DNA of 64,000 bases from Humibacillus sp. DSM 29435 (GTDB lineage Bacteria; Actinomycetota; Actinomycetes; Actinomycetales; Dermatophilaceae): positions 62,001 through 126,000 of the forward strand of contig NZ_MAST01000053.1 of NCBI RefSeq assembly GCF_001758225.1, read 5' to 3'. Shown piece by piece: positions 8,977-37,422 of this stretch (the stretch's first letter is position 1; the number at the start of each line of letters is the position of its first letter). The notes below the pieces were generated by a model that saw only the letters and a program-made list of their open reading frames with translations, made no database searches and was not told the DNA's origin. Made by a program: the position numbers and the translations under genes.

Positions 8977-10194
8977 ATGAACCTTTCCGAGCGAGCCGTC
9001 GAATCGCAGCGGCTTCAACGGACGCATCTGCCCGGGCGCCGCGAGCAGCTGGGCATGACGGTCAGGGAGGCAGACCTCTCGTTGGGCCTGAACGGTGCCG
9101 GAGGCGGGCTTCTCGACACCACGCATTTCGACACCGTGCGGTTTCCTCCGCCCGACTGGGCCATCAGCACGTTCGCCGCGGCGGCCGCCGACGGCACGAC
9201 GGCTTACACCGCGTATCGCGGAAGCGACGAGGTGCGCCGAGCCTGTGCCCGCTCGGTCTCGGGACTGATGGGTGTCGAGATCGACCCGTCGAGGAACATC
9301 GCCATCACGGCCGGCACCCAGAGTGCCCTCTTCGCCGTGCTGAGCGCCGTCGTCGATGAAGGTGACGTCGTCGTTCTCGCTGATCCCGAGTACCTGTTCG
9401 TCGAACGGATGCTGGCCTTCCTGGGCGCCGAGGTACGTCGGCTTCCGTTCGTCTCGACCACCTCAGGTCTGCAGCCCGACCTCGACCAGCTCGACCTGTA
9501 CAGCAGCACGGGCATCAAGTTGTTCATCACCTCCAACCCCAACAACCCGACGGGCACCGTGCTCAGCCCGGGTTCCGTGGCCCGCCTGGCTCAGCTGGCC
9601 GTTCGCGACGACTTCCTCGTGCTGATCGACGAGCTCTACGCTCGTCTGGTCTACGACGACGTCCCCTACACCCATCTGGCGGCCCAACCGGGAATGGCCG
9701 ACCGCACCATCACCCTGCTGGGAGGCTCGAAGACGGAGTCGCTGAGCGGCTACCGTGTCGGGGTCGTCGTCAGCTCGGCGCCCGTCATCGACGCTGTCGA
9801 ACAGACTCTTGCGATGCTCTGCCTCCGGGCACCGGCCTACGCCCAGCACGTGCTGACCAGGTGGCTCGTCGACGACGGTGACTTCGTGGCCAAGCGCGTA
9901 GCGGAGCTGCACGACATCCGGCGCACCACGATCGAGCAGCTGCTCACCGTGCCGGGCCTGGTCGTCGCCGCCGGGTCGGGAACCGCCTACCTCTGGCCCG
10001 ACGTGTCCGGGCTCGGTATCTCAGGCCTCGAGGCGGCCAGGGTTCTGCAGGAGAAGGCCGGCGTGGTGGTCAGCCCCGGCTACCAGTTCGGGCCATCGGG
10101 GAGCAACCATTTTCGCATCTGCTACGCCCGTGACGAACGGGAGTGGGCCGCCGCTCTCGAACGCATGACGGCCGCCTTGCGCGGGGAGTCCTGA
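8977..10194 (+). CDS. PLP-dependent aminotransferase, class I/II
   Basis: The product is 405 aa of fold-type I. Key segments are AYRGSDEVRRACA (about 79-91), the PLP-phosphate contact SNPNNPTG (186-193), the Asp in LIDELYARL (about 218), the Schiff-base Lys in LLGGSKTESLSGYRVG (Lys 252, Arg 260), and a C-terminal Arg in FRICYARDE. The ATG at 8977 follows a GGAGG at about 8963. RidA lies 58 bases downstream, which suits an enzyme releasing reactive enamine/imine intermediates. Substrate specificity is unknown. Confidence 0.9.
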   Translation: MNLSERAVESQRLQRTHLPGRREQLGMTVREADLSLGLNGAGGGLLDTTHFDTVRFPPPDWAISTFAAAAADGTTAYTAYRGSDEVRRACARSVSGLMGVEIDPSRNIAITAGTQSALFAVLSAVVDEGDVVVLADPEYLFVERMLAFLGAEVRRLPFVSTTSGLQPDLDQLDLYSSTGIKLFITSNPNNPTGTVLSPGSVARLAQLAVRDDFLVLIDELYARLVYDDVPYTHLAAQPGMADRTITLLGGSKTESLSGYRVGVVVSSAPVIDAVEQTLAMLCLRAPAYAQHVLTRWLVDDGDFVAKRVAELHDIRRTTIEQLLTVPGLVVAAGSGTAYLWPDVSGLGISGLEAARVLQEKAGVVVSPGYQFGPSGSNHFRICYARDEREWAAALERMTAALRGES

Positions 10195-10252: not shown

Positions 10253-10624
10253 ATGAAGCAGGCCATCAGCGCAGCCGACGCGCCGGCACCCGCCGGCCCC
10301 TACTCGCAGGCGGTTCGGGCGGGCGACTTCCTGTTCGTGTCGGGGCAGGTGCCTCGCCGCGCCGACGGCACCTACGAACCTGCCGACGTGGCCACCGAGA
10401 CCCGGCTGACGTTGCGCAACCTCTCGGCGATCGTCGCCGCGGCGGGCGCACGGCTCGAAGACTCGGTCAAGATCACCGCCTACCTCGCCGACGGCTCCGA
10501 CTTCGAGGAGTTCAACCGGGCCTATGCCGAGTTCTTCGACGACACGCCTCCGGCGAGAACGACGGTGGTCGCGGGGCTGCGCCAGGTCAAGGTCGAGCTG
10601 GACGCGATCGTCTACCTGGGTTGA
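10253..10624 (+). CDS. RidA family reactive enamine/imine deaminase
   Basis: The product is 123 aa, normal for RidA/YjgF/UK114. Visible signatures are PAPAGPYSQAVRAGDFLFVSGQ at the N-terminus and the C-terminal ARTTVVAGLRQVKVELDAIVYLG, which supplies the carboxylate-binding Arg and the Glu of the family active site. RidA proteins hydrolyse enamines and imines made by PLP enzymes. The gene directly follows an aminotransferase gene, consistent with that role. Its 3' end overlaps the convergent LysR gene by 13 bases. Confidence 0.9.
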   Translation: MKQAISAADAPAPAGPYSQAVRAGDFLFVSGQVPRRADGTYEPADVATETRLTLRNLSAIVAAAGARLEDSVKITAYLADGSDFEEFNRAYAEFFDDTPPARTTVVAGLRQVKVELDAIVYLG

Positions 10625-11535
10625 TCGGCCGGTGGGCGACAGGTTCGCTCGAGCTCTGCCAGGGCCGCCGCGATCGCCGGACGTCCCTGCGACGACGACC
10701 TCCACACCCCGAAGACCCGGCGCAGTGGTGGTGACCGCACCGCCACCGCCCGAACGGTGTTGGGCAGCAGGCCCCGTCCCATCCGGGGTGCGAGGGCCAC
10801 TCCGAGACCAGCGCCGACCATCTCCACCTGCGTGGCGTACTCACTGATCATGTGTCCGAGCGACACCCGGTCCGGCACCTCGCGAAAGGCGTGGAGCAGA
10901 AACTCGTGGGCCACCGAACCGGGCTCGAACAGCCACGGGTCGTTCACGAAGTCCTGGAGGGCGACGTCGCTGCTGGAGGCCAGTGGGTGAGCCGTGCTCA
11001 CCAGTACGTCGGAGACATCGTCGCCGAGGTGTCGGGTCTGCACGTCAGTCGGTACGTCCATGGTCACGCCGATCCAGTCGTGCGCGAGAGCGAGGTCGGC
11101 ACCTCCACCGGCCACCAGGTCTACGGCCCGATGCGAGCTGACCTCCAGCAGCCGCAGCTCGAGCTGTGGCCAGCGAGCCAGCAGCCGGCTCATCGCGATG
11201 GGGAGCACACCTCTGGCGGCACTGGGAAAGGCGGCGACGGTGAGCGTACCCGTCACCGTCTGAGCCGCCGCCTGCAGCGTGGCGTTCATGCTCTCGAGCT
11301 CGATGATGATGCGGCGGGCCGACAGGGCCAGGATCTCGCCGGGTGGCGTCAGGGTCGCGCGCCGGCCGCCACGCTCGACCAGACTCTGGTGAAGATCGCG
11401 TTCCAGCCTGAGGATCTGTTGTGAGACGGCAGAGGGGGTGTACCCGAGCGCGACGGCGGCCGCAGAGATCGACCCATGAGCCGAGAGCGCCTCGATGGCC
11501 CGCAGACCGGCCAGACTCACCGCAACCTGCGACAC
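10612..11535 (-). CDS. LysR-type transcriptional regulator
   Basis: The product is 307 aa. The N-terminal winged helix-turn-helix spans about residues 6-62 (LRAIEALSAHGSISAAAVALGYTPSAVSQQILRLE), followed by an effector-binding domain with TVAAFPSAARGVLPIAMSRLL. It is the last gene of the long minus-strand train, 88 bases after the LLM oxidoreductase, and is convergent with ridA. It may regulate the train, the aminotransferase-ridA pair, or itself; no LysR-type T-N11-A site was identified with confidence. Confidence 0.88.
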   Translation of the reverse strand: MSQVAVSLAGLRAIEALSAHGSISAAAVALGYTPSAVSQQILRLERDLHQSLVERGGRRATLTPPGEILALSARRIIIELESMNATLQAAAQTVTGTLTVAAFPSAARGVLPIAMSRLLARWPQLELRLLEVSSHRAVDLVAGGGADLALAHDWIGVTMDVPTDVQTRHLGDDVSDVLVSTAHPLASSSDVALQDFVNDPWLFEPGSVAHEFLLHAFREVPDRVSLGHMISEYATQVEMVGAGLGVALAPRMGRGLLPNTVRAVAVRSPPLRRVFGVWRSSSQGRPAIAAALAELERTCRPPADQPR

Positions 11536-11623: not shown

Positions 11624-12469
11624 TCAGACGCCGGCCCCGATGCGCTCGACGAGCTCGGCGTGCCAGCCGGGTTCGGGCTTCGCCGTCTCGATCCACCACG
11701 TTGCACCTGCGTCCACGTAGTCGGGCAGCTCGGTCATCAGCTGCCGGGGGTCATCGGTCACCTCGGCCCAGACGGCGAGGTCGAACGCAGAGGCTCCGGG
11801 CTCACGGTGGTCGGCCACGAGGTCACGAACGCCGGCGATCTGTTCGACAGAGGGTCGGGCCAGTCGGCCGTCGGCCCACGTGATGGGCACCGCGCCGTCC
11901 CACCGGGCCGCCCTGAGCATGGGCCGTCTGCGTGGCAGTGTGCCGCCGACCCAGATGGGAACTCGCGGCCGTTGCACCGGTGTCGGGGTGAAGCTCACCC
12001 CGTCGACCGTGTAGTGCTTGCCCTGGTGCGTGAAGGGTTCCCCGGTCCAGAGCCCCTCGAGTACCGTGAGCCCCTCGTCGAGCATCTCGGCGCGGATCAC
12101 GGCATCCGCCTCGTCGCCGAAGAGGGCGAAGTCCCCTTGGGCGGGCGAGCCGATGCCGACGCCCAGCACGAGCCGGCCGTTGCTGATCCGGTCGAGGGTG
12201 GCCGTCTGCCGGGCGAGCACCGCGGGTCGTCGGCGAGAGATCGGCGTGATCATCGTGCCGATCGTGATGCGTTCGGTCGCGTCGGCGATCAGGGCCAGTA
12301 CCAGCCAGGGGTCGAGGATGTCGGGGCCGACACCGTCGTTGCTGAACAGGATGTGGTCCCAGAGGAAGAACCCGTCGAAGCCCGCCTTCTCAGCCGCGAC
12401 CCCGAGCTCGACGAGGTCGTGGGGGTCTACGGCGAAGTTGGGGGCAGCGAGTCCCCGTTTCAGCGTCAC
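11624..12469 (-). CDS. Luciferase-like (LLM class) oxidoreductase
   Basis: The product is 281 aa from GTG 12469; this start gives a GTGA overlap with the stop of the preceding DUF4438-like gene. The TIM-barrel LLM signatures include GFDGFFLWDHI (about 32-42), TERITIGTMITPISRRRPAVLARQTATLD and GRLVLGVGIG. Members use FMNH2 or, in actinobacteria, often coenzyme F420. Which cofactor applies is not visible. Translational coupling places it in the same operon as the TldD/TldE and DUF4438 genes, where it presumably oxidises a pathway intermediate. Confidence 0.85.
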   Translation of the reverse strand: MTLKRGLAAPNFAVDPHDLVELGVAAEKAGFDGFFLWDHILFSNDGVGPDILDPWLVLALIADATERITIGTMITPISRRRPAVLARQTATLDRISNGRLVLGVGIGSPAQGDFALFGDEADAVIRAEMLDEGLTVLEGLWTGEPFTHQGKHYTVDGVSFTPTPVQRPRVPIWVGGTLPRRRPMLRAARWDGAVPITWADGRLARPSVEQIAGVRDLVADHREPGASAFDLAVWAEVTDDPRQLMTELPDYVDAGATWWIETAKPEPGWHAELVERIGAGV

Positions 12470-13341
12470 CGGCCGGCCAGCTCGGTGAGCAGGCTCGCGC
12501 TGACTCCAACATGGTCGTCGGGTCGCACCTCGAGCTCGACGGTCGCTCGTGGGGCCGAGAAGATCGGCATCATGCCCACCCCGTGGCCGGGGCGGGGGCT
12601 CGTCGTCGTCACCACGACTCCGAGTGTCACCCACCCCCTGCGGTACCCGGCGTTGCGCCGCACGTCGAGATCGGCGACCGCCACCAGGTCACCGATCGCC
12701 AGGCGATGCAACCCGAGCCGGTCGGCGTTGCTCGCGTCAACCTGAAGGTCGAGGTCCCACTGGTGGGCCGGCCGGCCGAGCCCGTTCCCCACGACCTCCG
12801 AGCCGACGACACCGCGCACCGTCGCCGAGACCTGTGCATCGCCGATGGTTACCCCGAGCCGAGGCAGGATGCCGGGGTCGACGTTGAGCAGCTCGGCCCC
12901 CCGCTCGGCGAGTGCCCCTGAGAGACCGGCCCCCTGACCGTAGGCCCGCACGGACATGGCGTCGCCGGGGACGATGGTGGCCAGGGTCTCGGGCGGGAAC
13001 CAGGCCAGCACCCGACCCTGCTCGCCCCGTTTGCCGAGCACGACGCCGCCGGCGCCCGCGGCGGCGCCGCTGCGCACCGTCACCGCGTTGCCCAGGCAGG
13101 CGAACGCGGTCAGGGCGTACCGCGCGGCCGGGTCGGAATGGACCAGCGACACCGCGGCGCTGGCGTGATCGGTGTCGAAGGCGAAGACGCTGTCTCCGAG
13201 TGAGATTCCCAGCACAACCCCTCCGTCACCGATGGGCACGTAGGGGCGCCCATCGACATCGATGAGGTACGGGTTGTTGTCGAGACCGGGGTGCTCGACG
13301 ACGCCGGCCACGTTGGTGGCCACGAGCGTGGGGGTGTTCAT
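12466..13341 (-). CDS. DUF4438-like protein, copy 1
   Basis: The product is 291 aa with no membrane segment. It contains GDGGVVLGISLGDSVFAFDTDHASAAVSL, then ACLGNAVTVRSGAAAGAGGVVLGKRG and a C-terminal RRGWVTLGVVVTTTSPRPGHGVGMMPIFS. These features fit, from memory, the uncharacterised DUF4438 family. It is clearly homologous to the next gene: both share NAVT.RSG.AAGA.G..GK/GQ, the NTDPG/NVDPG segment and GHG.G near the C-terminus. The genes overlap by 4 bases. Biochemical function is unknown; operon context suggests a binding or catalytic role with TldD/TldE. Confidence 0.65.
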   Translation of the reverse strand: MNTPTLVATNVAGVVEHPGLDNNPYLIDVDGRPYVPIGDGGVVLGISLGDSVFAFDTDHASAAVSLVHSDPAARYALTAFACLGNAVTVRSGAAAGAGGVVLGKRGEQGRVLAWFPPETLATIVPGDAMSVRAYGQGAGLSGALAERGAELLNVDPGILPRLGVTIGDAQVSATVRGVVGSEVVGNGLGRPAHQWDLDLQVDASNADRLGLHRLAIGDLVAVADLDVRRNAGYRRGWVTLGVVVTTTSPRPGHGVGMMPIFSAPRATVELEVRPDDHVGVSASLLTELAGR

Positions 13342-14213
13342 GAGAGGTCTCCCATCGTGGTCAGGGCCGAGGCAAGGTTGGCTGCGTCGTCGATGCGAAC
13401 GTCGAACGCCGACGCCGGGCCCGACAGCAGGGTGCTCGGGCCCGGGCCGTGACCGAACAGCCGACAGTGACCGGTGCTGATCACCCCGATGGTCGTGAAC
13501 CCGGGTCGGTGTCCACGGCCGAACCGGTGGTCCTGGTCGTCCAGCGCTACGAGGTCACCGACCCGCAGCCCCTCCAGGCCCAGCGAGAGATCCGACTTCT
13601 GCCCGGGGTAGGCCCCCATCAGGTCGGTGTTCGCGAACTCGGAGTACATCCCGGCGCCCGCCCCGACAGCCGCAGCGGGTACCCGCGTGGCCACGGGCAC
13701 CCGCAGTCGCCCGTCGGCGCCGGTGTCGATGCCGAGAAGGTCGAGCAGGCCCGGGTCGGTGTTCTTGACCACGATGTCGGGATGCTCTGTCAGCCTCAGT
13801 CCCTGACCCCGGGCGTGCACGGTCACGGTGTCACCCACGGTGACTCCCGCGAGCGCCTCCTCGGCGAGATCGACCAGCACGTAGGCGTGTTGCCCGATGA
13901 CCCGCCCGACGGCTCCCGCCGAGGGGCCGGAGCGGAGGGTGACCGCGTTTCCGACACAGGTGAGGAACTGCAGGGCCATGTTCGCCCGCTCGTCACGGTG
14001 ACGCACGGAAAGGCCGGGCTCCAGGTGGTCGGCGGCGTAGCCGGTCGCCGGGTCGCCGGGGTGCACCCCGAGAGTGACGGCGCCCATGCCGGGCAGCAGG
14101 AAGGGGTGCCCGTCGGCATCGGTGCGATACCCGTGCCGGTCACCCAGCGCGGGCCACACCTCGCCGGTGAGCACCTGGGTCACCAGGCGGTCGCGGTTGC
14201 ACAGCAGGGTCAT
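13338..14213 (-). CDS. DUF4438-like protein, copy 2
   Basis: The product is 291 aa, the same length as its downstream paralogue. It shows LLPGMGAVTLGVHPGDPATGYAADHLEPG, CVGNAVTLRSGPSAGAVGRVIGQHAYVLVDL, KNTDPGLLDLLGIDTG and GFTTIGVISTGHCRLFGHGPGPSTLLSG. A good GAGGAG ribosome-binding site precedes ATG 14213. The paralogues are diverged enough to have distinct roles, for example two subunits of one complex. DUF4438 assignment is from remembered family features, not a search. Confidence 0.65.
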   Translation of the reverse strand: MTLLCNRDRLVTQVLTGEVWPALGDRHGYRTDADGHPFLLPGMGAVTLGVHPGDPATGYAADHLEPGLSVRHRDERANMALQFLTCVGNAVTLRSGPSAGAVGRVIGQHAYVLVDLAEEALAGVTVGDTVTVHARGQGLRLTEHPDIVVKNTDPGLLDLLGIDTGADGRLRVPVATRVPAAAVGAGAGMYSEFANTDLMGAYPGQKSDLSLGLEGLRVGDLVALDDQDHRFGRGHRPGFTTIGVISTGHCRLFGHGPGPSTLLSGPASAFDVRIDDAANLASALTTMGDLS

Positions 14214-14255: not shown

Positions 14256-15683
14256 TCAGTGAGTCGGGGCGGCGCCAAGGCGGAACCCGTGCGCCCGGAT
14301 GGCAGGAGCGGTGATGGCGCCGTTCCAGACGTTCATGACCGGCGAAGAGCGCCGGAGGTCACCGACCCCGTCGACCGAGGCCAACACCTCGAGAACCGAC
14401 TGGGTGAACCTCATGCCACGAAGCGGGCGGCCGAGGCGCCCACCCTTGATCTCGAAGCAGGCGTCGCGGGTCACCCCCGTGATGGTGGTGGCCGTGGTGT
14501 CGACCGGACGGGTGTACCAGAACCGTTGGATGTAGACACCCTCGTCGACACCCGCAATCAGCTCGGCCTCGGTCGAGGTGCCCGCCGCCATCACGATGTT
14601 CGCGGCTCGCGTCTCCGGAACCTCCTCGCGGGCGATGTGCGCGTGACCGGTGGACCGAGACCGGGGGAGGGAGGAGGTGAGCACGCGAGCCGTGTGGAGG
14701 TCGAGCACGGGGGAGTCGACGACGCCGTGGTCGAGCAGCTGCACTCTCTGCTTGGGCACGCTCTCGATGTCGAAGCCGACCGGCAGGCCGATGTCGGCCA
14801 GAGCGTCGTCGGCGATGTCGACGGCTGCAGTGGCCACCTGCTGGCCACGAGACCGCGTCCAGAGCCCGACCCCTGCTGCGGCGAGCTCTCCGGAGAAGCC
14901 GAAGCTGGGGAGGAACTCGAGCAGCTCCGCCGTCGCCTCCGGGCCGAGCACCACCGTGTAGACGCCCGGCTCCAGGTCACCTCGACCCGTGCTCGCTGCG
15001 GCCTGCTGCAGGCCGGCCTCGATCGCGAGTCCGAGCTGCAGGCGCGAGCTCGATCGCCCGACGTCGACGAAGTGGCTCGTGCCGTCGTCGACGGTGAAGG
15101 TACAGCTCGCCAGCGCTTCCGTGGCGAGCGTCGCCCGTTCGACGCCGCCACTCGTGGCCGTCACGAGCGAGGTGGCCGCCCGCCCGAACATGCCGGCCAC
15201 GGTGGCGCCACCCACCCCCGCGGCGATCATCGCCGCCCGCACCTGCTCGACCCGGGCGGCCTCGTCGAACGCCGCTGTGTCGTCGAACCAGAGCAACGAA
15301 CGCGGCGGCCCGACCGGTCCGGTACCGAAGGTCTGACGGGTCGCGACCCGATGGCCGCCGGGCGCAGACGAGCCGGCGGCGATCGCCCTCGCGAACGAGG
15401 CGGCCGACGCCGCGGCCTGCGCGGCACCGGCCAGGCTGCTCGTGGAGGCGCGCGCCGCGTGGCCGTTCACGACCGCCCGCACCATCACCTGCACCTCGAC
15501 GATGTCCTGCGGTTGGTGGATGCGGTCTCCGGCGAACCGGGTGTACTGCCCGTTGCGGCCGGTCAGGAACGCGTCGAACTCGTCGGCACCCGAACCGCTG
15601 ACGACCGCAGTGAGGGTCTCGAGCGCGGCGTCGAGGTCGACGGCAGGCCCGAACGCGTCATCGCTCATCGGGGCTGTCGCCAT
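14256..15683 (-). CDS. TldE/PmbA-like metallopeptidase partner
   Basis: The product is 475 aa. It shows the TldD/PmbA fold segments (RVQLLDHGVVDSPVLDLHTARVL, VMAAGTSTEAELIAGVDEGVYIQRFWYTRPVDTTATTITGVTRDACFEIKGG and GDLRRSSPVMNVWNG) but no HExxxH motif, as expected for the TldE subunit that completes the TldD active site. In E. coli the TldD/TldE heterodimer degrades unfolded peptides and processes microcin B17. Its ATG overlaps the tldD-like stop (TGATG), implying equimolar co-translation. Substrate here is likely a peptide brought in by the operon's transporter. Confidence 0.88.
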   Translation of the reverse strand: MATAPMSDDAFGPAVDLDAALETLTAVVSGSGADEFDAFLTGRNGQYTRFAGDRIHQPQDIVEVQVMVRAVVNGHAARASTSSLAGAAQAAASAASFARAIAAGSSAPGGHRVATRQTFGTGPVGPPRSLLWFDDTAAFDEAARVEQVRAAMIAAGVGGATVAGMFGRAATSLVTATSGGVERATLATEALASCTFTVDDGTSHFVDVGRSSSRLQLGLAIEAGLQQAAASTGRGDLEPGVYTVVLGPEATAELLEFLPSFGFSGELAAAGVGLWTRSRGQQVATAAVDIADDALADIGLPVGFDIESVPKQRVQLLDHGVVDSPVLDLHTARVLTSSLPRSRSTGHAHIAREEVPETRAANIVMAAGTSTEAELIAGVDEGVYIQRFWYTRPVDTTATTITGVTRDACFEIKGGRLGRPLRGMRFTQSVLEVLASVDGVGDLRRSSPVMNVWNGAITAPAIRAHGFRLGAAPTH

Positions 15684-17191
15684 CAGGCCACCCCGATCCG
15701 CTGGTCACGAACGAGGATGGGGGCCGCGCCATGGCTGAGGAAACCCCACTGCTTGGGTTCGCCCTTGCCGCAGGGGTAGCCGAAGTTGCGAACTTCCTCC
15801 GGGCCGGCCACGGCCTCGACCGAGCCCCAGAACTGGGGGGTCACCCCGCCGTAGCTGAAGTTCTTCAACAACCGACCTCTGCGTCCGCGTTTCACCTCGT
15901 AGGCCACCTCGGTTCCGAACTGGAAGTTGACCCGGCGGTCGTCGATCGACCAGCTGTGGTTGTCGTCCAGGTAGTAGCCGGTCCCGAGGCGCTCGAGCAG
16001 CTCGCTCAACGACCCGTGCCCCGGCTCGAGGTGCACGTGCGTGGAGAAGCAGACCGGAAGGTAGGCCCACCCGTCGGAGCGGGCCGCACCGGTCACCGGC
16101 AGGCCGGCCCGAGCAGCCGACTCACGCGAAGACAGGGTGTTGTGCACGATGCCTGCGACGACCAACGGGGTGCGAGAGGCGGGGGTCCCCTCGTCGTCGA
16201 ACGCGAAGCTGCCCCGGGTGCCCGGCACGGTGGGATCGGAGGTGATGCTCACGGCGGCTGAGCCGTAGCGGAGCCGGCCGACGTCGTCGACACCGATGAA
16301 CGAGGTTCCCGCGAAGTTCTGCTCGTCGCCGAGGATGCGGTCGAGCTCGAGGGGGTGCCCTGCCGACTCGTGGATCTGCAGCGACACCTGCTGGGCACCG
16401 ATCACCAGGTCGGCGCGGCCGGGTGTCGCGACCGGCGCCGTCAGCAGCGCGACCGCCTCCTCGCCGACGCGGCCGGCGTTGGCGACCATCTCGAGGCCGA
16501 GCACGAACTCCCAGCCGGCCCCTGCAGTGTCGCCGTGGAAGGAGTTCGGGTAGCTGCGTCGCTGGATGTCGTGGCCGTCGGATGCCGTGGCGACCATCAT
16601 CGCGCCCGACTCCATCAGGTGCTGGTGCTGGCGGGAGCCCTCGGTGTCGGCGTAGTGCCGATGCTGTCGCTTCGCGTTGACCCCGGCCTGGGCGTCTCGA
16701 ACGGCGGCCGGACCGGTCATGGTGGCCATCACGTCTGCGAGCAGGCCGTGACGGCTCGCGTCGTCCACCGCGAACGGGTCGAGCCTGACCTCGGTGGCAT
16801 AGCGACCCGAGATGCCCTCGCGAGCCGGCAGACGCGAGCGAGCGCCGACGCCGATACCGGCCCGAGCGACGGCGAGGGCTCGCCGAGCTGCCGCCGCCGG
16901 GTCGCCGGACGCTCCCAAGGGGCGGGACGCGAAGCCCCAGGCGCCGCCGACCAGCACTCGCACGCCGATCCCCACGTTGTACTCCCGGCGCTCGTCGGGG
17001 TCACCCTCGTGGCGGTGGTAGGCGCGAAGCTCCTCCGCCTCGACGAGCCTCACGTCAGCGAACTCGACGTCGCGGGGCAGCACAGCCAGCGCCTGCTCCA
17101 GCAGGCTCGTCGCCGACCCGTCGTCGGCGAGATCGCCCCAGTCGTGTGCCTGGCTGCGATCTGCCCCCTCGCCGTCGGTCTCGAGGGCCAC
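15683..17191 (-). CDS. TldD-like zinc metallopeptidase
   Basis: The product is 502 aa from GTG 17191, one base after the preceding stop. The TldD metal motif is LQIHESAGHPLELDRIL, an HExxxH with ligands at about His274 and His279. Downstream are FAFDDEGTPASRTPLVVAGIVHNTLSSRESAARAG and a C-terminal GTEVAYEVKRGRRGRLLKNFSYGGVTPQFWGSVEAV. TldD with TldE forms a barrel-like protease for small unstructured or modified peptides. Here the pair sits in an importer/oxidoreductase operon rather than as a scattered housekeeping pair. Confidence 0.9.
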   Translation of the reverse strand: MALETDGEGADRSQAHDWGDLADDGSATSLLEQALAVLPRDVEFADVRLVEAEELRAYHRHEGDPDERREYNVGIGVRVLVGGAWGFASRPLGASGDPAAAARRALAVARAGIGVGARSRLPAREGISGRYATEVRLDPFAVDDASRHGLLADVMATMTGPAAVRDAQAGVNAKRQHRHYADTEGSRQHQHLMESGAMMVATASDGHDIQRRSYPNSFHGDTAGAGWEFVLGLEMVANAGRVGEEAVALLTAPVATPGRADLVIGAQQVSLQIHESAGHPLELDRILGDEQNFAGTSFIGVDDVGRLRYGSAAVSITSDPTVPGTRGSFAFDDEGTPASRTPLVVAGIVHNTLSSRESAARAGLPVTGAARSDGWAYLPVCFSTHVHLEPGHGSLSELLERLGTGYYLDDNHSWSIDDRRVNFQFGTEVAYEVKRGRRGRLLKNFSYGGVTPQFWGSVEAVAGPEEVRNFGYPCGKGEPKQWGFLSHGAAPILVRDQRIGVA

Positions 17192-17192
17192 C

Positions 17193-18239
17193 TCAGTAGC
17201 CTCGGCCGGCCTGGTAGACGTTCCGGAGCGGCTCGCCGCCCCGAAGTCGACGGAAGTTGTCGATGAACAGGTCGGTGAGCACCTCGTTCTCGACGGCGGC
17301 GGTGGAGGCCGAGTGCGGTGAGACCAGCACGTTCGGCAGGTCCCACAACGGTGAGGCGGACGGCAACGGCTCGACGTCGAAGACATCGAGCGCGGCGCCG
17401 CCCAGCTTCCTGGCCGAGAGCGCCTCGGTCAGGGCGTTCTCGTCGATCACCTGCCCCCGTGCAACGTTGACGACGATGGCTCCCGCGGGGAGCGCGGACA
17501 CCCTCGAGGCGTCGATGAGGTTCTGGGTCTCGGGCGTCAGGGGAACCGCCAGCACGAGGATGTCGGTCGCCTCCAGCACGTCGTCGAGGTTCTCGATGTC
17601 GATGGTGGCTACGCCGTTCGGCAGGTCGTACGTGCTGCCCGAGCGACCGACGCCGGTCACCTGCACGCCGAGCGCATGGAAGACCGTGGCGACCTGGCGT
17701 CCGATGGAGCCGAGCCCGACCACGGTGGCTCGTCGACCGGCGAGCTGACCACTGACGTGTCGCTCCCAGTGGTGCTCACGCTGGCGCGAGACCAGCTGCG
17801 GCACGTCCTTGACGAAGTGCAGCACGCCGGTGACGGCGAACTCGGCGAGCGGTGCAGCGTGCGTGCCGGCGGCGGTGGTGAGCGTGAGCTCGCCACCATC
17901 CAGGCCGTACCGCTTCACGAAACCCCCGATCCCCGCGCTGGTCGCCTGCACCCACTGCAGCCTGGGGGCGTTGGTCAGCAGCTGTGCAGGATCGCGCCAG
18001 TCGAAGTCGAAGGCCACGTCGGCGGTCGCCAGCATCTGCAGCCACTCACGTTCCTGGGCCGGCGAGAGGGTCGGTGGCGTCCCGCCGTGGTCGTTGCCGT
18101 ACCGGGGCACGGGGAGCAGCTCTGGCGCGTAGAGCACCTCGACGTCGGCGCTCTGCCTGATCCGTTCGACCAGCGCCGGCTCGAGTGGGGTCGAGATGAG
18201 AACCGAGGGGCGGTCGGGCAGCTGGGTGGGTCGGGTCAC
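17193..18239 (-). CDS. D-isomer-specific 2-hydroxyacid dehydrogenase
   Basis: The product is 348 aa from GTG 18239, giving a GTGA overlap with the upstream Gfo/Idh/MocA stop. The NAD-binding motif is VVGLGSIGRQVATVFHALG, followed by LAVPLTPETQNLIDA, NVARGQVIDENALTEAL (catalytic Arg region), ALDVFDVEPLPSASPLWDLPNVLVSPHSA with the catalytic Glu and His. The family reversibly reduces 2-oxoacids to D-2-hydroxyacids; the substrate is not predictable from this. A longer upstream-start version is low-complexity and unlikely. Confidence 0.9.
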   Translation of the reverse strand: MTRPTQLPDRPSVLISTPLEPALVERIRQSADVEVLYAPELLPVPRYGNDHGGTPPTLSPAQEREWLQMLATADVAFDFDWRDPAQLLTNAPRLQWVQATSAGIGGFVKRYGLDGGELTLTTAAGTHAAPLAEFAVTGVLHFVKDVPQLVSRQREHHWERHVSGQLAGRRATVVGLGSIGRQVATVFHALGVQVTGVGRSGSTYDLPNGVATIDIENLDDVLEATDILVLAVPLTPETQNLIDASRVSALPAGAIVVNVARGQVIDENALTEALSARKLGGAALDVFDVEPLPSASPLWDLPNVLVSPHSASTAAVENEVLTDLFIDNFRRLRGGEPLRNVYQAGRGY

Positions 18240-19213
18240 CGTGCTTCTCCTGTCGTGGCGGCGGCGCGAACGAGGTCGAGCGACCGAGCCTGCTGGACGG
18301 CATCCTGCACGGCGGTGTGTTGCGCCGTCGCCTGGCCGAGGATGACGGCGTTGATGTGGTCGATGGCGTGCCGGAACGCCGAGCCGGAGGCTGCCGGCCA
18401 GGTCTCGACGTGTTCCCGACCAACCCACAGCTCGACCGTGTCGCGGGCGGTGGGGTGGAAGGGGTTGGTCACTCGCAGCTCACCGGTCGTACCGACGATG
18501 CGGGTGAAGGTCGACATCGGGCGGCGCATACCGGCCGACATGATCAACCGCCGTGACTGCGGGAAGTCGACGACGGCCGCCATGTCGAGCTCTACTCCGC
18601 CGGGGCTCGGGGTGAGCGCGGTCGCAGCGTGCACCGGTTCCGAACCGAACAGGTGTCGGGCGAGGCGAAGGGGGTAGCACCCGACGTCGTACAGCGCCCC
18701 GCCACCGAGCTCGCGGCTCAGGCGGATGTTCCCGGTGGCACCGGTGATGTCGAAGTGGAACTCCGACACGATCTCGGTGAGGTCACCGATGCGTCCCTCG
18801 GCCACGAGGCGCTCCAGCAACGTGGTCTGGGGGTGGAACGCGAAGACGAACGACTCCCACAGCAGGTCATCAGGACCGACCGCGGCGACCAGGTGCTCAG
18901 CCTGAGCGGCGTTCAGGGCAATGGGCTTCTCGCAGAGCACCGCCTTGCCCGCTGCGAGGGCGGCGGCCGCCCAGACGGAGTGCTGGTCGTTGGGTAGCGC
19001 CACGTACACGGCGTCGACATCGTCAGCCGCCACTACAGACTCGTAGGTGCCGGCGCGCGTCACCCCGTTCTCGGCGGCCCATGTCTGGCCGCGGTTCTCC
19101 GAGCGACTGCCGACCACGGTGGCCACTCCGCCCGCTTCGCGCAGCGCGGGGAGGAACGCCTTCGCGGCGATGTTCGCCGTTCCCAGCACGCCCCATCTCA
19201 TCGGATCAGGCAT
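18236..19213 (-). CDS. Gfo/Idh/MocA family oxidoreductase, copy 2
   Basis: The product is 325 aa from ATG 19213, which overlaps the GntR stop by 8 bases; ATG 19201 is an alternative that avoids overlap. The NAD(P)-binding Rossmann motif is MRWGVLGTANIAAKAFLPAL, and the family signature is KAVLCEKPIALN (catalytic Lys in EKP). Later VGCYPLRLARHLFG is typical of the C-terminal domain. Members oxidise or epimerise sugars, inositols and their derivatives. It is distinct from the longer Gfo/Idh/MocA protein encoded just upstream of the GntR gene. Confidence 0.9.
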   Translation of the reverse strand: MPDPMRWGVLGTANIAAKAFLPALREAGGVATVVGSRSENRGQTWAAENGVTRAGTYESVVAADDVDAVYVALPNDQHSVWAAAALAAGKAVLCEKPIALNAAQAEHLVAAVGPDDLLWESFVFAFHPQTTLLERLVAEGRIGDLTEIVSEFHFDITGATGNIRLSRELGGGALYDVGCYPLRLARHLFGSEPVHAATALTPSPGGVELDMAAVVDFPQSRRLIMSAGMRRPMSTFTRIVGTTGELRVTNPFHPTARDTVELWVGREHVETWPAASGSAFRHAIDHINAVILGQATAQHTAVQDAVQQARSLDLVRAAATTGEAR

Positions 19214-19883
19214 GGGTGGACCCCACGTAGTGGTCGCGCAGCGCGGCGACCGCAACCGTCGGGTCCTTGCGCCGGAACGAGGTCAGCAGCTTGCGATGCA
19301 TGGCCACGGTCTCGTCCAAAGACATGCCCTGGCGATCCAGGGTCGAGCGCATCAGCGCACCCATCTGCCCGTTCAGCGTCGACCACAGCTCGACGAGGCG
19401 CGGATGCCCGCTGGCGTCCATGATGAGCCGGTGCAGCTCGGTGTCGAGCTCGACGATGCCCGACACGTCGTCTGTGTCGGCCGCGAGCTGCATCAGGTCG
19501 ACCACGTCGCCCATGTCCGCGAGGAGACCGGGCCGCACCAGGTGCCACACGTCAGTCAGCGACGCCGACTCCAGCACGAACCGGGTGTAGCAGGCCTCGG
19601 CCACGTCTTCGGCCGACATCCGCGACACGATCGTGCGGCGTCTCGGCTGCACCTCGATCAGCCGCTCGGTCTGCAGCTCGCGCAGTGCAGCGCGAACGGT
19701 CGTGCGGGAGACGCCGAACTCCGCCGCCAGGTTCAGCTCCACCAGGGGCGTCCCGGCCGGCAGCTCGTTGCTGAGGATCTGGGACCGGAGAATGTCGTGA
19801 ACCGACTCGGGCAGTGAGCGGTGCTGCAGCACCGCGCGCTGCCTGTTCCCGGGGCCAGGGGCGGTGATGGCAGAAGTGGTCAT
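19206..19883 (-). CDS. GntR/FCD family transcriptional regulator
   Basis: The product is 225 aa. The winged helix has LRSQILSNELPAGTPLVELNLAAEFGVSRTTVRAALRELQTERLI (about residues 31-75), and the C-terminal FCD ligand domain carries the metal-binding His pattern LDTELHRLIMDASGHPRLVELW and MHRKLLTSFRR. FCD regulators bind short palindromes and respond to carboxylates or sugar acids. It lies inside the train it probably controls; the best operator candidates are the two TTGTCGACAA palindromes upstream of the train, with a weaker 8/10 match TTGTCGCGAA at 19895-19904 beside its own start. Confidence 0.9.
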   Translation of the reverse strand: MTTSAITAPGPGNRQRAVLQHRSLPESVHDILRSQILSNELPAGTPLVELNLAAEFGVSRTTVRAALRELQTERLIEVQPRRRTIVSRMSAEDVAEACYTRFVLESASLTDVWHLVRPGLLADMGDVVDLMQLAADTDDVSGIVELDTELHRLIMDASGHPRLVELWSTLNGQMGALMRSTLDRQGMSLDETVAMHRKLLTSFRRKDPTVAVAALRDHYVGSTHA

Positions 19884-19931: not shown

Positions 19932-21062
19932 TCAGCGCCCGTCGGCGGCGAGCGGGAAGTCCACCCAGGCGCGGGTGCGATGGGCCTGCTCGAACGCGTT
20001 GATCGTCTGCTGCACCAGGGCGCCCTGACGAAAGTCACCCTGGTTGACGGGTCCGCCTCCCAGGATCTCATCGGTGAAGTCACGCAGCACGTTGGAGTAG
20101 AACAGGAAGGGCCACGGCTCTTTCGAGGTGCCACCGGCGGGAAAGAAGCGCTCGGGAATGTCGCGCTCGACGAACTCGACGGAATCCTTCGTGGCCGTCC
20201 TGATCGTCTGGCAGATGCCGGCCTCCTCGACCAGACGCACGATGATCGCCCCCTCGGACCCGTAGATCCGCACTTCGATCCCCGGATAGTTCCCGACGGT
20301 CACGAACGAGGACTGCACGGAGGCGAGGCGGCCACCACCGAACTCGGCGATCCACATGTCACCGTCGTCGATGTTCACCCGCGTCATCTCGCCGGTCTCA
20401 CGCACCACTCGGTTCGGCACGAAGTTGCGCATGGTGCCCACGACCGACTCCAGGGGGGCATCCATCCACCAGTGCATGATGTCGATGACGGGCGCCCCGT
20501 ACCCCTCGATGGAGGACACCGCGATCTCTGCGTCGTCGTCGGTGGTGCGCAGCTGTCGCAGGGGAGTCTGCGGGTCCAGCCACTGGCTGTTCTGCTCGAA
20601 GGCGTTGAGCATGTAGGGCTCCCCGATGAAGCCCTGGGCGATCAGCTCGGCCGCGTACATGGTGGCGGGGGCGTAGCGGAACGTGAAGCCGAGCTTGGTC
20701 TTCAGGCCCTTGCTCTCGGCCAGGTCGGCTGCCGCGATGACCTGGTGATAGTCCGAGTGCACCGGCTTCTCGCACAACACGTGCTTGCCCGCCTCGAGCG
20801 CGGCCCACGAGACCTCGAAGTGCATCTGGTCGCCCGTCACCACATCGATGACGTCGATGTCGGGGTCTTCCACCAGACGGCGGTAGTCGCTCTCGAGCCG
20901 CTCGATCCCGAACTCCTTCCCGGCGCTGGCGAGGGCTTCCGCGTCGGTGTCGGCGAGCCCGACCACCTCTACGCGCGGGTCACGCTGCCAGCCGGGAATG
21001 TGCGAGCGGGTGGCCCAGCGACCGGTGCCGATAACGCCGACGCGAAGCTTTTTCTCTGACAC
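19932..21062 (-). CDS. Gfo/Idh/MocA family oxidoreductase, copy 1
   Basis: The product is 376 aa from GTG 21062. It has VGVIGTGRWATRSHIPGWQRD (Rossmann), VDVIDVVTGDQMHFE, the signature KHVLCEKPVHSDYHQV with catalytic Lys, and GAPVIDIMHWWMDAPLESVVGTM in the C-terminal domain. The ending VNQGDFRQGALVQQTINAFEQAHRTRAWVDFP is typical of myo-inositol-dehydrogenase-like members. It follows the transporter genes. The presence of two such oxidoreductases plus a 2-hydroxyacid dehydrogenase suggests several redox steps on a polyhydroxylated or amino-sugar-like moiety. Confidence 0.9.
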   Translation of the reverse strand: MSEKKLRVGVIGTGRWATRSHIPGWQRDPRVEVVGLADTDAEALASAGKEFGIERLESDYRRLVEDPDIDVIDVVTGDQMHFEVSWAALEAGKHVLCEKPVHSDYHQVIAAADLAESKGLKTKLGFTFRYAPATMYAAELIAQGFIGEPYMLNAFEQNSQWLDPQTPLRQLRTTDDDAEIAVSSIEGYGAPVIDIMHWWMDAPLESVVGTMRNFVPNRVVRETGEMTRVNIDDGDMWIAEFGGGRLASVQSSFVTVGNYPGIEVRIYGSEGAIIVRLVEEAGICQTIRTATKDSVEFVERDIPERFFPAGGTSKEPWPFLFYSNVLRDFTDEILGGGPVNQGDFRQGALVQQTINAFEQAHRTRAWVDFPLAADGR

Positions 21063-21098: not shown

Positions 21099-22202
21099 TC
21101 AGCGGGCTGCCCAGAAGTCCATGGGTTCCACCAGGGACGATCGGGGCGGTGTCTCCTGGCCCGACCGGGACGGGGGTTGAAGGTCGATCTCCTGGTGCCT
21201 GCGACACCGGACACCGGCCGGCGAGCCTGCAGCGCCGGCCACCAGCAGCTCCGTCGTCCACGTCGAGCAGCCTTCGTCGGCGAACGTGCAGCGGGGCAGG
21301 AACCGGCACGTGTCGGGAAGGTCGATGAGGCGCGGTGGAGAGCCAGAGATCGCGGTGAGCGGCTGGTCGCGCGGCACTGCGCCAGGAAGCGACTTCAGGA
21401 GCGCATTCGTGTAGGGGTGCCGTGGGGTGTGCAGGAGCGTGGCCGTCTCGGCGAGCTCGACCACCTGACCCCCGTACATGACAGCGACGCGATCGCACAC
21501 CTGGGCGATCACGGACAGGTCGTGGCTGACCAGCACCAGGCTCGTACCCAGGTCTCGCTGCAGGTCGACGAGCAGGCTGAGAATCTGGTCCTGGATGATG
21601 ACGTCGAGCGCGGTGGTCGGCTCGTCGGCGATGAGAACACGAGGGTCACCGGCCAACGCGATGGCGATCAGGGTGCGTTGCAGCATGCCGCCGCTGAACT
21701 GGTGCGGGTAGTCGCGCATTCGCTTCTGCGGGTTCGGAATACCCACTCTGGTCATCAGCTCGACGATCCGCTCGAACCGTTGCGACTTCGGCATCGACGA
21801 GTGCGCAGCGATGGCTTCGGCGATCTGGTCGCCGATGCGGTGCACCGGGTTGAGCGAGGTCATCGGGTTCTGCGGAATCATGGAGATGTAGGTGCCCCAG
21901 TGCTTGCGCATGACACCCCGCCCGGCATCGAGCACGTTCTCGTCCATCACCCCGGGGTAGGTGACCGACCCCGTGTGGCGGGCCTGGGCCGAGGGCATCA
22001 GTCCCAGCAGCGACCGGCAGGTGACGGTCTTGCCGCTGCCGGTCTCGCCGACGATGCCGAGCACCTCTCCCGACCGCAGTGTCAGTGACACATGGTCGAC
22101 GGGGGTGACGATGCCCCCGGAGGTCGGGATCGTGACGGAGACGTCGTTGGCCTCGAGCAGGACGGCTGCCTGAGGGGCGGTCACGGTGTGGTCGGTTCTC
22201 AT
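21099..22202 (-). CDS. Oligopeptide-type ABC transporter ATPase (DppD/OppD-like)
   Basis: The product is 367 aa. Walker A is GIVGETGSGKT, the signature is FSGGMLQR, and Walker B is VLIADEPT, followed by LVSHDLSVIAQVCDRVAVMYGG. The C-terminal Cys cluster DTCRFLPRCTFADEGC is characteristic of the Opp/Dpp ATPases, which often bind an Fe-S cluster. It overlaps the DppC-like gene by 4 bases. Together with the second ATPase encoded at the start of the train it should energise the importer. Confidence 0.95.
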   Translation of the reverse strand: MRTDHTVTAPQAAVLLEANDVSVTIPTSGGIVTPVDHVSLTLRSGEVLGIVGETGSGKTVTCRSLLGLMPSAQARHTGSVTYPGVMDENVLDAGRGVMRKHWGTYISMIPQNPMTSLNPVHRIGDQIAEAIAAHSSMPKSQRFERIVELMTRVGIPNPQKRMRDYPHQFSGGMLQRTLIAIALAGDPRVLIADEPTTALDVIIQDQILSLLVDLQRDLGTSLVLVSHDLSVIAQVCDRVAVMYGGQVVELAETATLLHTPRHPYTNALLKSLPGAVPRDQPLTAISGSPPRLIDLPDTCRFLPRCTFADEGCSTWTTELLVAGAAGSPAGVRCRRHQEIDLQPPSRSGQETPPRSSLVEPMDFWAAR

Positions 22203-23071
22203 CGCTTGGTCCTCAACAGGTCTGACAGTCCGTCACCGACGAGGCTCAGGCCCACGCCCAGCACCACCAGCGCGGCTCCGGGCACCAGCGACAGCCACCA
22301 GTTCGACAGGATGAAGTTCTGACCCGACGAGATCATCGAACCCCACTCCGGGGTGGGCTCGGGGATGCCGACCCCGAGGTAGCCGAGCGAAGCGCCCAGC
22401 AGCACGTTGCCGACGGCGTCGACCATGGCGAAGATGATCACACCGGGCAGCACACTCGGCAGCAGGTGGCGCGACAGGATCCGCAGGTGGGAGAACCCGA
22501 GCGCCTTCGCCGCCACGACGTAGCCGTACTGGTTGGCCGAGAGCGTCTGCCCGTGGGAGATGCGCGCGTAGCTGACCCAGCTGACCACCCACAGGGCGAT
22601 GAACAGGTTGATCAGGCTGGTCCCGAGCGCAGCGATGATCGCGATGACGAGCACGATGAACGGGAAGGCGAAGAACAGGTCGACGATACGCATGACGACG
22701 GCGTCGGTCCGACCGCCGATGTGCGCAGACACCACCCCGACCACGGTGCCGACCACCAGGGTCACAGCGGTGGCGCCGAACGCGATGGCGAGGTCGTAGC
22801 GGCCACCGTAGATGACGCGCGTCCAGAGGTCTCGGCCGTACTCGTCCGTGCCCAGAAAATGGCCAGGGGAGAAGAGCGGGGCCAGGGGGTTCGTGGCGTC
22901 CACGGCGATCGGGGAGTACGACGTGAAGAGCGGAGCTCCGAAGCACACGACGATCATCACGAGCAGGATCGCGACGCCGAGCGCCAGCGACACGTTTCCG
23001 CTGAGCCCGGGCAGCAGCGGGCGACGGGGAGTGGTTCGGGTGGACGGTCGTCCGAAAAGGGTGAGGGTCAT
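22199..23071 (-). CDS. Oligopeptide-type ABC permease (DppC-like)
   Basis: The product is 290 aa with about six membrane helices. It has the OppC N-terminal segment (LSLALGVAILLVMIVVCFGAPLF), FLGTDEYGRDLWTRVIYGGRYDL, and the coupling loop KALGFSHLRILSRHLLPSVLPGVI (EAA-like). The gene overlaps the downstream ATPase gene and is separated from dppB by three bases. Confidence 0.94.
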   Translation of the reverse strand: MTLTLFGRPSTRTTPRRPLLPGLSGNVSLALGVAILLVMIVVCFGAPLFTSYSPIAVDATNPLAPLFSPGHFLGTDEYGRDLWTRVIYGGRYDLAIAFGATAVTLVVGTVVGVVSAHIGGRTDAVVMRIVDLFFAFPFIVLVIAIIAALGTSLINLFIALWVVSWVSYARISHGQTLSANQYGYVVAAKALGFSHLRILSRHLLPSVLPGVIIFAMVDAVGNVLLGASLGYLGVGIPEPTPEWGSMISSGQNFILSNWWLSLVPGAALVVLGVGLSLVGDGLSDLLRTKR

Positions 23072-23074
23072 GGT

Positions 23075-24016
23075 CTAGGCCGCCGCGAGTCGGGGATCCA
23101 TGGCCACGTGGACCAGGTCGGTGAGCAGGTTGGCTGCGAGGACGAACAGCGCGAAGAGCAGGGTCAGACCCTGGACCACCGGGTAGTCGCGGGTCGAGAC
23201 CGAGTTGACGAGCAGCGAGCCCAGGCCGGGGATCGAGAAGACGTTCTCGATGACGACCGTGCCGCCCACGAGAAAGGCCAGGTTGACCCCGAAGACGACG
23301 ACGACCTTCATGCCGGCGTTGCGCAGGATGTGGCGTGAGACCACCCGGCGCCACGACACTCCCTTGAGCAGTGCGGTCGTCACGTAGTCGGCGTCCAGCG
23401 TCTCGATCACGCTGGCGCGCAGCGAACGCACCAGCACGGTTGAGAACGGGATGGCGATCGTGATCGACGGCAGAATCAGGTGTTGCACGTGCTCGAGGAA
23501 TCCGTCGCCGAAGCCGCTGATCGGCAGGATCGGCACCTTGACCCCGAACACGAGGATGAGCAGAACCCCGAGCAGGAAGCTCGGAAGGGCGTAGCCGATC
23601 AACAGGAAGACCCGGCTGCCCTGGTCGGCGATGCCGCCCCGGTGCAGCCCCACGTAGAGCCCCGTGGGGATGGCGATGACCGCCGTGAAGAGCCCGGCCT
23701 GGGCGATGAGGAACAGGGTGGGGACGAGCCCGTCCGAGACCAGCTGCCCGACCGAGGCGTTCAGGGAGTAGGAATGCCCGAACTGCCCGCTCAACGCGTT
23801 GGTGACGAAGATCCAGTACTGGGAGAGGACTGACTGGTCGAGACCCAGGTTGAGGCGGATCTGCGTCGCCGCCTCCGGGGTGTAGTGGTTGCCCAGGATG
23901 AGCGAGGCCGGGTCGCCCGGCACCATCCGGATCAGGACGAAGGACACGATGGTGATGCCGAAGATGATCGGCAGCATCTGCACCAGCCGTCGGCCGATGA
24001 TCGCTATCCAGGCCAT
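23075..24016 (-). CDS. Oligopeptide-type ABC permease (DppB-like)
   Basis: The product is 313 aa. It begins with a membrane helix RRLVQMLPIIFGITIVSFVLIRMVPGDPASLILG, the classic DppB opening, and contains ALLKGVSWRRVVSRHILRNAGMKV as the ATPase-coupling loop and VIENVFSIPGLGSLLVNSVSTRDYPVVQG. It pairs with the DppC-like permease. Confidence 0.95.
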   Translation of the reverse strand: MAWIAIIGRRLVQMLPIIFGITIVSFVLIRMVPGDPASLILGNHYTPEAATQIRLNLGLDQSVLSQYWIFVTNALSGQFGHSYSLNASVGQLVSDGLVPTLFLIAQAGLFTAVIAIPTGLYVGLHRGGIADQGSRVFLLIGYALPSFLLGVLLILVFGVKVPILPISGFGDGFLEHVQHLILPSITIAIPFSTVLVRSLRASVIETLDADYVTTALLKGVSWRRVVSRHILRNAGMKVVVVFGVNLAFLVGGTVVIENVFSIPGLGSLLVNSVSTRDYPVVQGLTLLFALFVLAANLLTDLVHVAMDPRLAAA

Positions 24017-26914: not shown

Positions 26915-26927
26915 TTGTCGACAATCA
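26915..26927. promoter_or_regulatory. Operator-like palindrome, copy 1
   Basis: The sequence is TTGTCGACAATCA, containing the perfect 10-base palindrome TTGTCGACAA. It lies 100 bases upstream of the dppF-like start and on the shared intergenic region with the SDR gene. Short TNGTCGACNA-like palindromes are typical GntR/FCD sites, so the regulator at 19206-19883 is the likely ligand (inference). Confidence 0.72.
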
Positions 26928-26987: not shown

Positions 26988-27000
26988 TTGTCGACAATCA
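26988..27000. promoter_or_regulatory. Operator-like palindrome, copy 2
   Basis: This is an exact 13-base repeat of copy 1 (TTGTCGACAATCA), 73 bases away, about seven helical turns. It lies 102 bases upstream of the SDR start. A TATACT -10-like hexamer at 26963-26968 sits between the two copies, so a regulator bound at both could loop over or block a promoter serving the SDR gene. Confidence 0.72.
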
Positions 27001-37228: not shown

Positions 37229-37422
37229 CCTGGCCCCTTCGGCACTGGGTTCCGTGGCGGAACCGGTTGTTCGCTCACCCACCGGGAAAGTAGATCACGC
37301 TGGGGGTGGGTGAGAAGCGTGCGACCCACGGGCGGCGCGACGCCCGCCGGGAGCGTTCTCGGCGCGCTGATCAGGGTACTTGATCTCAGGCGTGGGCCCG
37401 ACCGCCGCACTACAGTGCGCGC

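Follow-up and report, generated by a model that had tools for sequence, protein, structure and literature searches.

TldD/TldE proteins are widespread and their general role is open, the roles described in the literature consulted being the maturation of an organism's own peptides or the degradation of an antitoxin fragment. The question raised by the locus examined here is what adjacent tldD- and tldE-like genes do inside an operon which also encodes an ABC importer, as they are found in a 64,000-nucleotide stretch of the genome of Humibacillus sp. DSM 29435 (contig NZ_MAST01000053.1, positions 62,001 to 126,000; hereafter the window). A first-pass annotation, made from the letters of the sequence, had proposed that the pair was recruited to process an imported substrate. 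Recruitment to the importer operon is supported by the separate clades that the cluster-borne TldD and TldE proteins form, by the conserved linkage to an importer and by a shared palindrome; that the pair acts on an imported substrate is something we infer, and 9 of 34 related clusters lack tldDE. We consider it probable that the pair is a dedicated metallo-amidohydrolase of the TldD/TldE (M103) type within an actinobacterial uptake-and-breakdown operon, in which it would hydrolyse an amide bond of an imported conjugate.

The TldD/TldE pair and its operon

Both proteins of the pair score above the Pfam cut-offs for PF01523 and PF19289, and the junction between their genes, CCTGATGGC, contains the one-base TGATG overlap that the first-pass annotation had described (14256-17191). 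As that annotation had also stated, the HExxxH motif is confined to TldD, where a motif search located it once, as HESAGH at residues 274 to 279, and returned no HExxxH in TldE. The same division holds among relatives, HExxxH and CGK being present in 59 of 59 TldDs and HExxxH in none of 58 partner TldEs. Cys474 of TldD, the likely third metal ligand, is retained, and an alignment of TldD with E. coli TldD and eight others has both His residues, the Glu and Cys474 invariant in all 10 rows; the same residues are the metal ligands and catalytic base in the part of Ghilarov et al. (PMC5810440) available to us. Since these active-site residues are intact, TldD is likely to possess a working active site, and on the evidence of its domains and these residues the pair is assigned to the TldD/TldE (PmbA) metalloprotease family, M103. 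Scores against the equivalog models of E. coli-type TldD (NF008006; 63.5 bits, curated cut-off of 513) and archaeal TldD (NF040952; 94.3 bits, curated cut-off of 635) fall short. The tldD gene starts with GTG, one base past the stop codon of the dehydrogenase gene; an alternative ATG start would extend it to 17386, inside that gene.

The pair belongs to a 14-gene run on the minus strand, from 26815 down to 11624, which encodes, in order, OppF, a solute-binding lipoprotein (SBP), OppB, OppC, OppD, a Gfo/Idh/MocA oxidoreductase (Gfo1), a GntR regulator, a second such oxidoreductase (Gfo2), a D-2-hydroxyacid dehydrogenase, TldD, TldE, two DUF4438 proteins (a and b) and a luciferase-like oxidoreductase (Table 1). 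The widest intergenic gap, of approximately 110 bases, separates OppF from SBP. With an SBP_bac_5 protein, two BPD permeases and two ATPases that carry an oligo_HPY tail, the transporter has the composition of an Opp/Dpp-type ABC importer, of the peptide/nickel/opine class; its SBP lies under the cut-off of every NCBIfam model matched.

Table 1. Coordinates of the features discussed in the text (aa, amino acids)
Feature	Coordinates	Strand	Evidence and remarks
Class I/II aminotransferase	8977..10194	+	Domain match; homologues in relatives' clusters
RidA-type imine/enamine deaminase	10253..10624	+	PF01042
LysR regulator	10612..11535	-	Domain match; closes the minus-strand run; in few relatives (3/34 loci)
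Luciferase-like (LLM) oxidoreductase	11624..12469	-	Near TIGR03619 F420 group, under its cut-off; GTG start
DUF4438 protein b	12466..13341	-	PF14505 and PF20999; 37% identity to protein a; genes a and b overlap by 4 bases
DUF4438 protein a	13338..14213	-	PF14505 and PF20999; PDB 3dcl/3n99, E 5e-53; relative of Thermotoga maritima TM1086
TldE homologue	14256..15683	-	475 aa; HExxxH absent; PF19289 2.4e-34, PF01523 1e-4; TGATG overlap with tldD
TldD homologue, predicted catalytic subunit	15683..17191	-	502 aa; PF19289 1e-31, PF01523 1.2e-5
D-isomer 2-hydroxyacid dehydrogenase	17193..18239	-	PF02826 2.9e-50
Gfo/Idh/MocA oxidoreductase 2 (Gfo2)	18236..19213	-	Pfam domain
GntR-family regulator with FCD domain	19206..19883	-	Pfam domain
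Gfo/Idh/MocA oxidoreductase 1 (Gfo1)	19932..21062	-	Pfam domain
OppD-like importer ATPase	21099..22202	-	oligo_HPY
OppC-like importer permease	22199..23071	-	Domain match
OppB-like importer permease	23075..24016	-	Domain match
Solute-binding lipoprotein, SBP_bac_5	24048..25652	-	PF00496 1.5e-96; best PDB match 7kz8; lipobox LSAC by eye
OppF-like importer ATPase	25763..26815	-	oligo_HPY
Palindrome TTGTCGACAA, putative operator, copy 1	26915..26924	.	Upstream of OppF
Palindrome TTGTCGACAA, putative operator, copy 2	26988..26997	.	Upstream of OppF

Conservation of the cluster across Actinomycetota

Because the genome (5.02 Mb) holds nine SBP_bac_5 genes, proximity to one of them by chance is uncommon but not rare, and the argument is carried by conservation across the phylum. 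A scan of 84,980 species' genomes with an alignment of DUF4438a and two short peptide patterns, by which at least three clusters that came to light by other means (L045, L046 and L047) were overlooked, yielded 34 loci. Every one of them carries the label of Actinomycetota or of a group inside the phylum, including Acidimicrobiaceae, Solirubrobacterales, Micromonosporaceae, Pseudonocardiaceae, Streptosporangiaceae, Microbacteriaceae and Propionibacteriaceae. Both DUF4438 genes were present in all 34, Gfo1 in 32, OppB with OppC in 30, GntR in 29, TldE in 25, TldD in 24 and the dehydrogenase in 23; an aminotransferase match, in some cases weak, was obtained in 18, and one locus cut by a contig end (L065) has TldE without TldD. 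OppB/OppC genes lie within the stretch at 22 of the 24 cluster loci where TldD is present; at the remaining two, L072 and L085, a contig end truncates the locus. At 16 of the 24 the Opp permeases are located upstream in the same strand run. The coupling of the pair to an importer, which the first-pass annotation had claimed, is thereby upheld, and since the arrangement recurs across the phylum it is not a product of chance.

Thirty-three TldD loci outside the cluster were mapped likewise, with flanks of approximately 6 to 11 kb (1.5 kb on one side of L142), and OppB/OppC genes were present at two of them (L130 and L163). Fisher's test of importer linkage gives a p of 1.9e-11, which describes this sample only, as the compared loci are not independent. 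The expectation that TldD/TldE genes usually lie away from transporters thus fits the sample, albeit with more than one exception.

Two importer types accompany the cluster. The window-like type has the order F-SBP-B-C-D and an SBP, where present, approximately 58 to 98% identical to that of the window; the other has the order SBP-D-F-C-B and an SBP of approximately 26% identity. The partnership of tldDE with an importer therefore persists when the importer itself is exchanged, and this speaks against simple hitch-hiking. Clustering of open reading frames (ORFs) of at least 100 aa without homology to genes of the window, over 37 loci (the 34 and the three additional ones), yielded, as further partner genes, one loose family in three loci and none in more. 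A Pfam scan of 20 chosen flanking ORFs gave one-off genes, for example DAO and Pyr_redox at L060, a DHDPS-family gene at L063 and CN-hydrolases at L079, and no substrate clue. The TldD of Trebonia kvetii (L069:13164-14637) is matched as two separate fragments, which would suit a broken gene or a sequencing error, and is placed after GntR rather than before DUF4438a.

Phylogeny and copy number of the pair

All 26 rows of cluster TldDs fall into a single clade, with support of 100/100 and in all 200 bootstrap trees examined, in a careful tree of 57 rows from which E. coli TldD and L142 were dropped as long branches; a quick tree of all 59 TldD rows contains the same clade. The trees were built without L036 and L037, which duplicate L083 and L073; L048 and L077 are one and the same contig. 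Cluster TldEs likewise form one clade (27 of 27 rows; Shimodaira-Hasegawa-like approximate likelihood ratio test [SH-aLRT] 99) in a tree that contains long branches and was built additionally without L050 and rows of fewer than 300 residues. The cluster TldD clade stands apart from the stand-alone actinobacterial TldDs, its nearest relatives not being resolved in the tree.

The first-pass annotation had held recruitment to be less likely if these were the only TldD/TldE genes of the genome and belonged to the ordinary vertical clade. A search of the genome (54 contigs, completeness 100) with PF01523 and PF19289 located a pair at this locus only, so that the first part applies, whereas the second is contradicted by the separate clade. 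Among 97 relatives, the genome itself included, 11 possess TldD/TldE and three of these 11 (G000, G001 and G002, with one pair each) also possess DUF4438; within the family, TldD/TldE occurs in 4 of 59 genomes, the genome itself being counted in the 59. Neither the window TldD nor its counterpart in Humibacillus sp. 41_S55 groups with the TldD of their family mate Nostocoides sp. Soil756. Forcing these three into an Intrasporangiaceae clade, a test group which is a taxonomic family but was chosen after the tree had been seen, costs 80 log-likelihood units and is rejected (approximately unbiased test, p-AU 0.00065). This rejection points to transfer; the simplest account is that the cluster, or tldDE, was transferred. 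Thirteen cluster-bearing genomes, four with tldDE in the cluster and nine without, were searched for further pairs; among the four, a second pair, belonging to another clade, is present in Asanoa and Microlunatus, and Plantibacter and Actinokineospora have the cluster pair alone.

A palindrome shared by cluster genes

The palindrome TTGTCGACAA occurs twice in the window, both times before OppF, where 0.03 copies would be expected; in 40 sequences (757 kb) nine copies were observed, compared with 0.35 in simple shuffles. Its core, TGTCGACA, has 21 matches over the 37 cluster loci and a 20-kb slice of the window, 19 of which precede the gene for SBP, OppF, Gfo1, the dehydrogenase or the aminotransferase; one of the others lies near an uncertain SBP start (L082) and the last elsewhere (L055:15966). 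Because the palindrome recurs before these genes, the importer, Gfo1, the dehydrogenase and the aminotransferase are likely to constitute one regulon. The form of the palindrome is one which we take to fit operators of the GntR family.

Proposed role of the pair and alternative explanations

We propose that the Opp-type importer would bring in a small molecule conjugated to a peptide or an N-acyl group, and that cytosolic TldD/TldE would cut the amide bond between the amino-acid, peptide or acyl part and the rest. Gfo1 and a two-subunit DUF4438 protein, the a and b chains presumably forming one complex, would then work on the remaining core, while the aminotransferase, RidA and the 2-hydroxyacid dehydrogenase would dispose of the amino- and keto-acid part; the order of these steps is presumptive. 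Since the nearest solved relatives of Gfo1 act on sugars or polyols wherever a substrate is named, the core may be sugar-like. A regulator, probably the FCD-type GntR of the operon, would bind TTGTCGACAA and be released by an intermediate. Gfo1 and the DUF4438 pair were also considered, from the relation of Gfo1 to DgpA, as equivalent to DgpA and DgpB/C, which act on C-glycosides; nothing linked DUF4438 to DgpB/C, and the idea was not adopted.

Several observations weigh against the proposal or parts of it. As tldDE is absent from 9 of the 34 clusters, the TldD/TldE step is replaceable or dispensable in some of them; in seven of those nine genomes a pair or half-pair lies elsewhere, and the remaining two have none. 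The target of the pair could also be something other than the imported compound. Furthermore, three Microbacteriaceae clusters (L062, L064 and L066) possess the palindrome and have no GntR within the fetched stretch, so that the assignment of GntR as the regulator is not secure.

The alternative that deserves most attention, although we judge it unlikely, is that the pair is an N-deacylase rather than a peptidase and strips an amino compound that has been imported of its acetyl or another acyl group. The title of a review by Vobruba et al. (2022) places N-deacetylases in the TldD/TldE family, and the sugar- and polyol-acting relatives of Gfo1 would suit an N-acyl amino sugar; against this, the transporter is of the peptide/nickel/opine class, and the sequences at hand do not separate a deacylase from a peptidase. 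It is less probable still that the pair degrades a pathway peptide or protein of endogenous origin, such as a regulator or a damaged enzyme, its proximity to the importer reflecting co-regulation only. The E. coli proteins are described, in the part of PMC5810440 available, as a loosely specific peptidase that degrades CcdA41, and nine clusters manage without tldDE; however, the pair travels with catabolic enzymes and an importer across families, and its TldD clade is confined to the cluster in our sample.

That these are ordinary housekeeping genes which came to lie near an importer by happenstance is strongly disfavoured. The pair is indeed the only one in its genome, but 55 of the 59 family genomes have none, the cluster TldD constitutes a separate clade, the family grouping was rejected and a further pair is present in two other genomes that bear the cluster. 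Scarcely credible, finally, is a biosynthesis cluster for a pearlin or a ribosomally synthesized and post-translationally modified peptide (RiPP), in which TldD/TldE would free the product, as TldD/TldE-like proteases do in microcin B17 and ammosamide biosynthesis according to the portions of the literature consulted: the domain scan found no peptide-modifying enzyme among the operon proteins, the gaps between operon genes leave no room for a precursor gene and the transporter is of the importer type.

Hydrolysis of an imported conjugate is thus the reading retained. Whether the operon represents a new breakdown pathway, spread by transfer within Actinomycetota, in which a specialised TldD/TldE subfamily and a heteromeric DUF4438 enzyme dismantle an imported peptide-sugar or acyl-amino conjugate, is a broader proposition to which we give about even chances. 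If true, it would establish a nutritional role of TldD/TldE on imported molecules and a first function for DUF4438. A clade with an importer, an operator-like site and fixed partner enzymes would offer, through the ligand of the SBP, a route to a natural TldD/TldE substrate. Searches of a limited literature set, combining TldD with TldE, importer, TonB-dependent or N-deacetylase, returned no description of the operon in titles or the starts of abstracts.

The DUF4438 proteins

Both DUF4438 proteins possess the two domains of the family, and DUF4438a has the fold of TM1086. A model of DUF4438a built by AlphaFold2 (AF2) from 46 sequences reached a predicted local distance difference test (pLDDT) score of 93.4, an earlier model from six sequences having been poor (68.7), and a fold search with it gave TM1086 (3dcl) as the sole whole-length match (Z of approximately 40). 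The next rows (Z of approximately 9) were F/V-ATPase chains matched over only some 70 residues, and the fold search supplied no functional hint. At certain positions, Asp, Cys, Asn, Gln, Arg and His residues are conserved without exception in the 46 sequences. PF14505 occurs in the genome at this locus only, twice, and in a class-wide draw DUF4438 exceeded the cut-off in 5 of 296 genomes, this one included; plasmids searched for DUF4438 gave no match. Thermotoga maritima TM1086 (3dcl, 3n99) resembles DUF4438a in sequence and fold over the whole length, whereas the actinobacterial proteins form an unequal adjacent pair, mostly beside TldD/TldE and an importer. The structure of TM1086 (3dcl) has been solved since 2008, and the operon supplies DUF4438 with a pathway context. 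The literature searched, which lacks most subscription papers, contained no paper on DUF4438; for TM1086 it held one crystallisation survey, the remainder being apparently unrelated by title, and for PF14505, 3DCL and 3N99 no functional paper by title.

Known systems and TldD/TldE loci outside the cluster

The E. coli TldD/TldE system (MEROPS M103; PDB 5nj5) is, like that of the window, a two-gene pair with the same Pfam domains and with HExxxH and a C-terminal Cys in TldD only. The window TldD is approximately 24% identical to its E. coli counterpart, and its gene adjoins tldE within an importer operon, in contrast to the separate loci of E. coli. In the parts of the sources available, the E. 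coli proteins trim unfolded peptides from the N-terminus (PMC5810440) and Amm12/13 removes a C-terminal dipeptide (PMC12424672). Amm12/Amm13 of ammosamide and LmbIH/LmbQ of lincosamide biosynthesis are also actinobacterial TldD/TldE-like pairs in a pathway-specific place, a likeness drawn from their description; they differ in belonging to biosynthetic clusters, for which the portions consulted mention no Opp-type importer.

TldD/TldE also adjoins an Opp-family importer, there of the Yej type, on a plasmid of Pseudomonas aeruginosa (CP124675) and one of Burkholderia stagnalis (NZ_CP156687), with a separate TldD clade and with no DUF4438, Gfo/Idh or GntR among the annotated neighbours. At such proteobacterial plasmid loci (L087:13479-28891 and L088:1570-16393) the Yej-type importer is accompanied by a TonB-dependent receptor and ExbBD, and perhaps a metal chelator resembling a peptide is taken up and trimmed there; the papers searched contained no description of this arrangement. 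Approximately 5 kb past TldD/TldE in Burkholderia stagnalis (L088:21395-28187), three radical SAM genes, an insulinase-family gene and a 55-codon ORF resemble a peptide-product cluster.

In two actinobacterial genomes (L130:9367-17677 and L163:8573-14698), TldD/TldE genes of a lineage outside the DUF4438-associated clade are divergent from OppB, OppC and SBP genes. Because these two TldDs belong to one other lineage (82% identical over the compared stretch), a second, separate link of TldD to an importer may exist. In a record labelled as a plasmid of M. ulcerans (L089:4757-10702), tldDE and the genes of a sugar ABC importer, among which there is none for an ATPase, point in divergent directions; the UspABC paper, in the part available, describes an amino-sugar importer whose operon likewise lacks an ATPase gene.

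Elsewhere in the window, three successive genes (32623-37282) look, by eye, as if they encoded a ketoacyl synthase like OleA, a fusion resembling OleB-OleC and a reductase like OleD. The row presumably resembles that of long-chain olefin biosynthesis.

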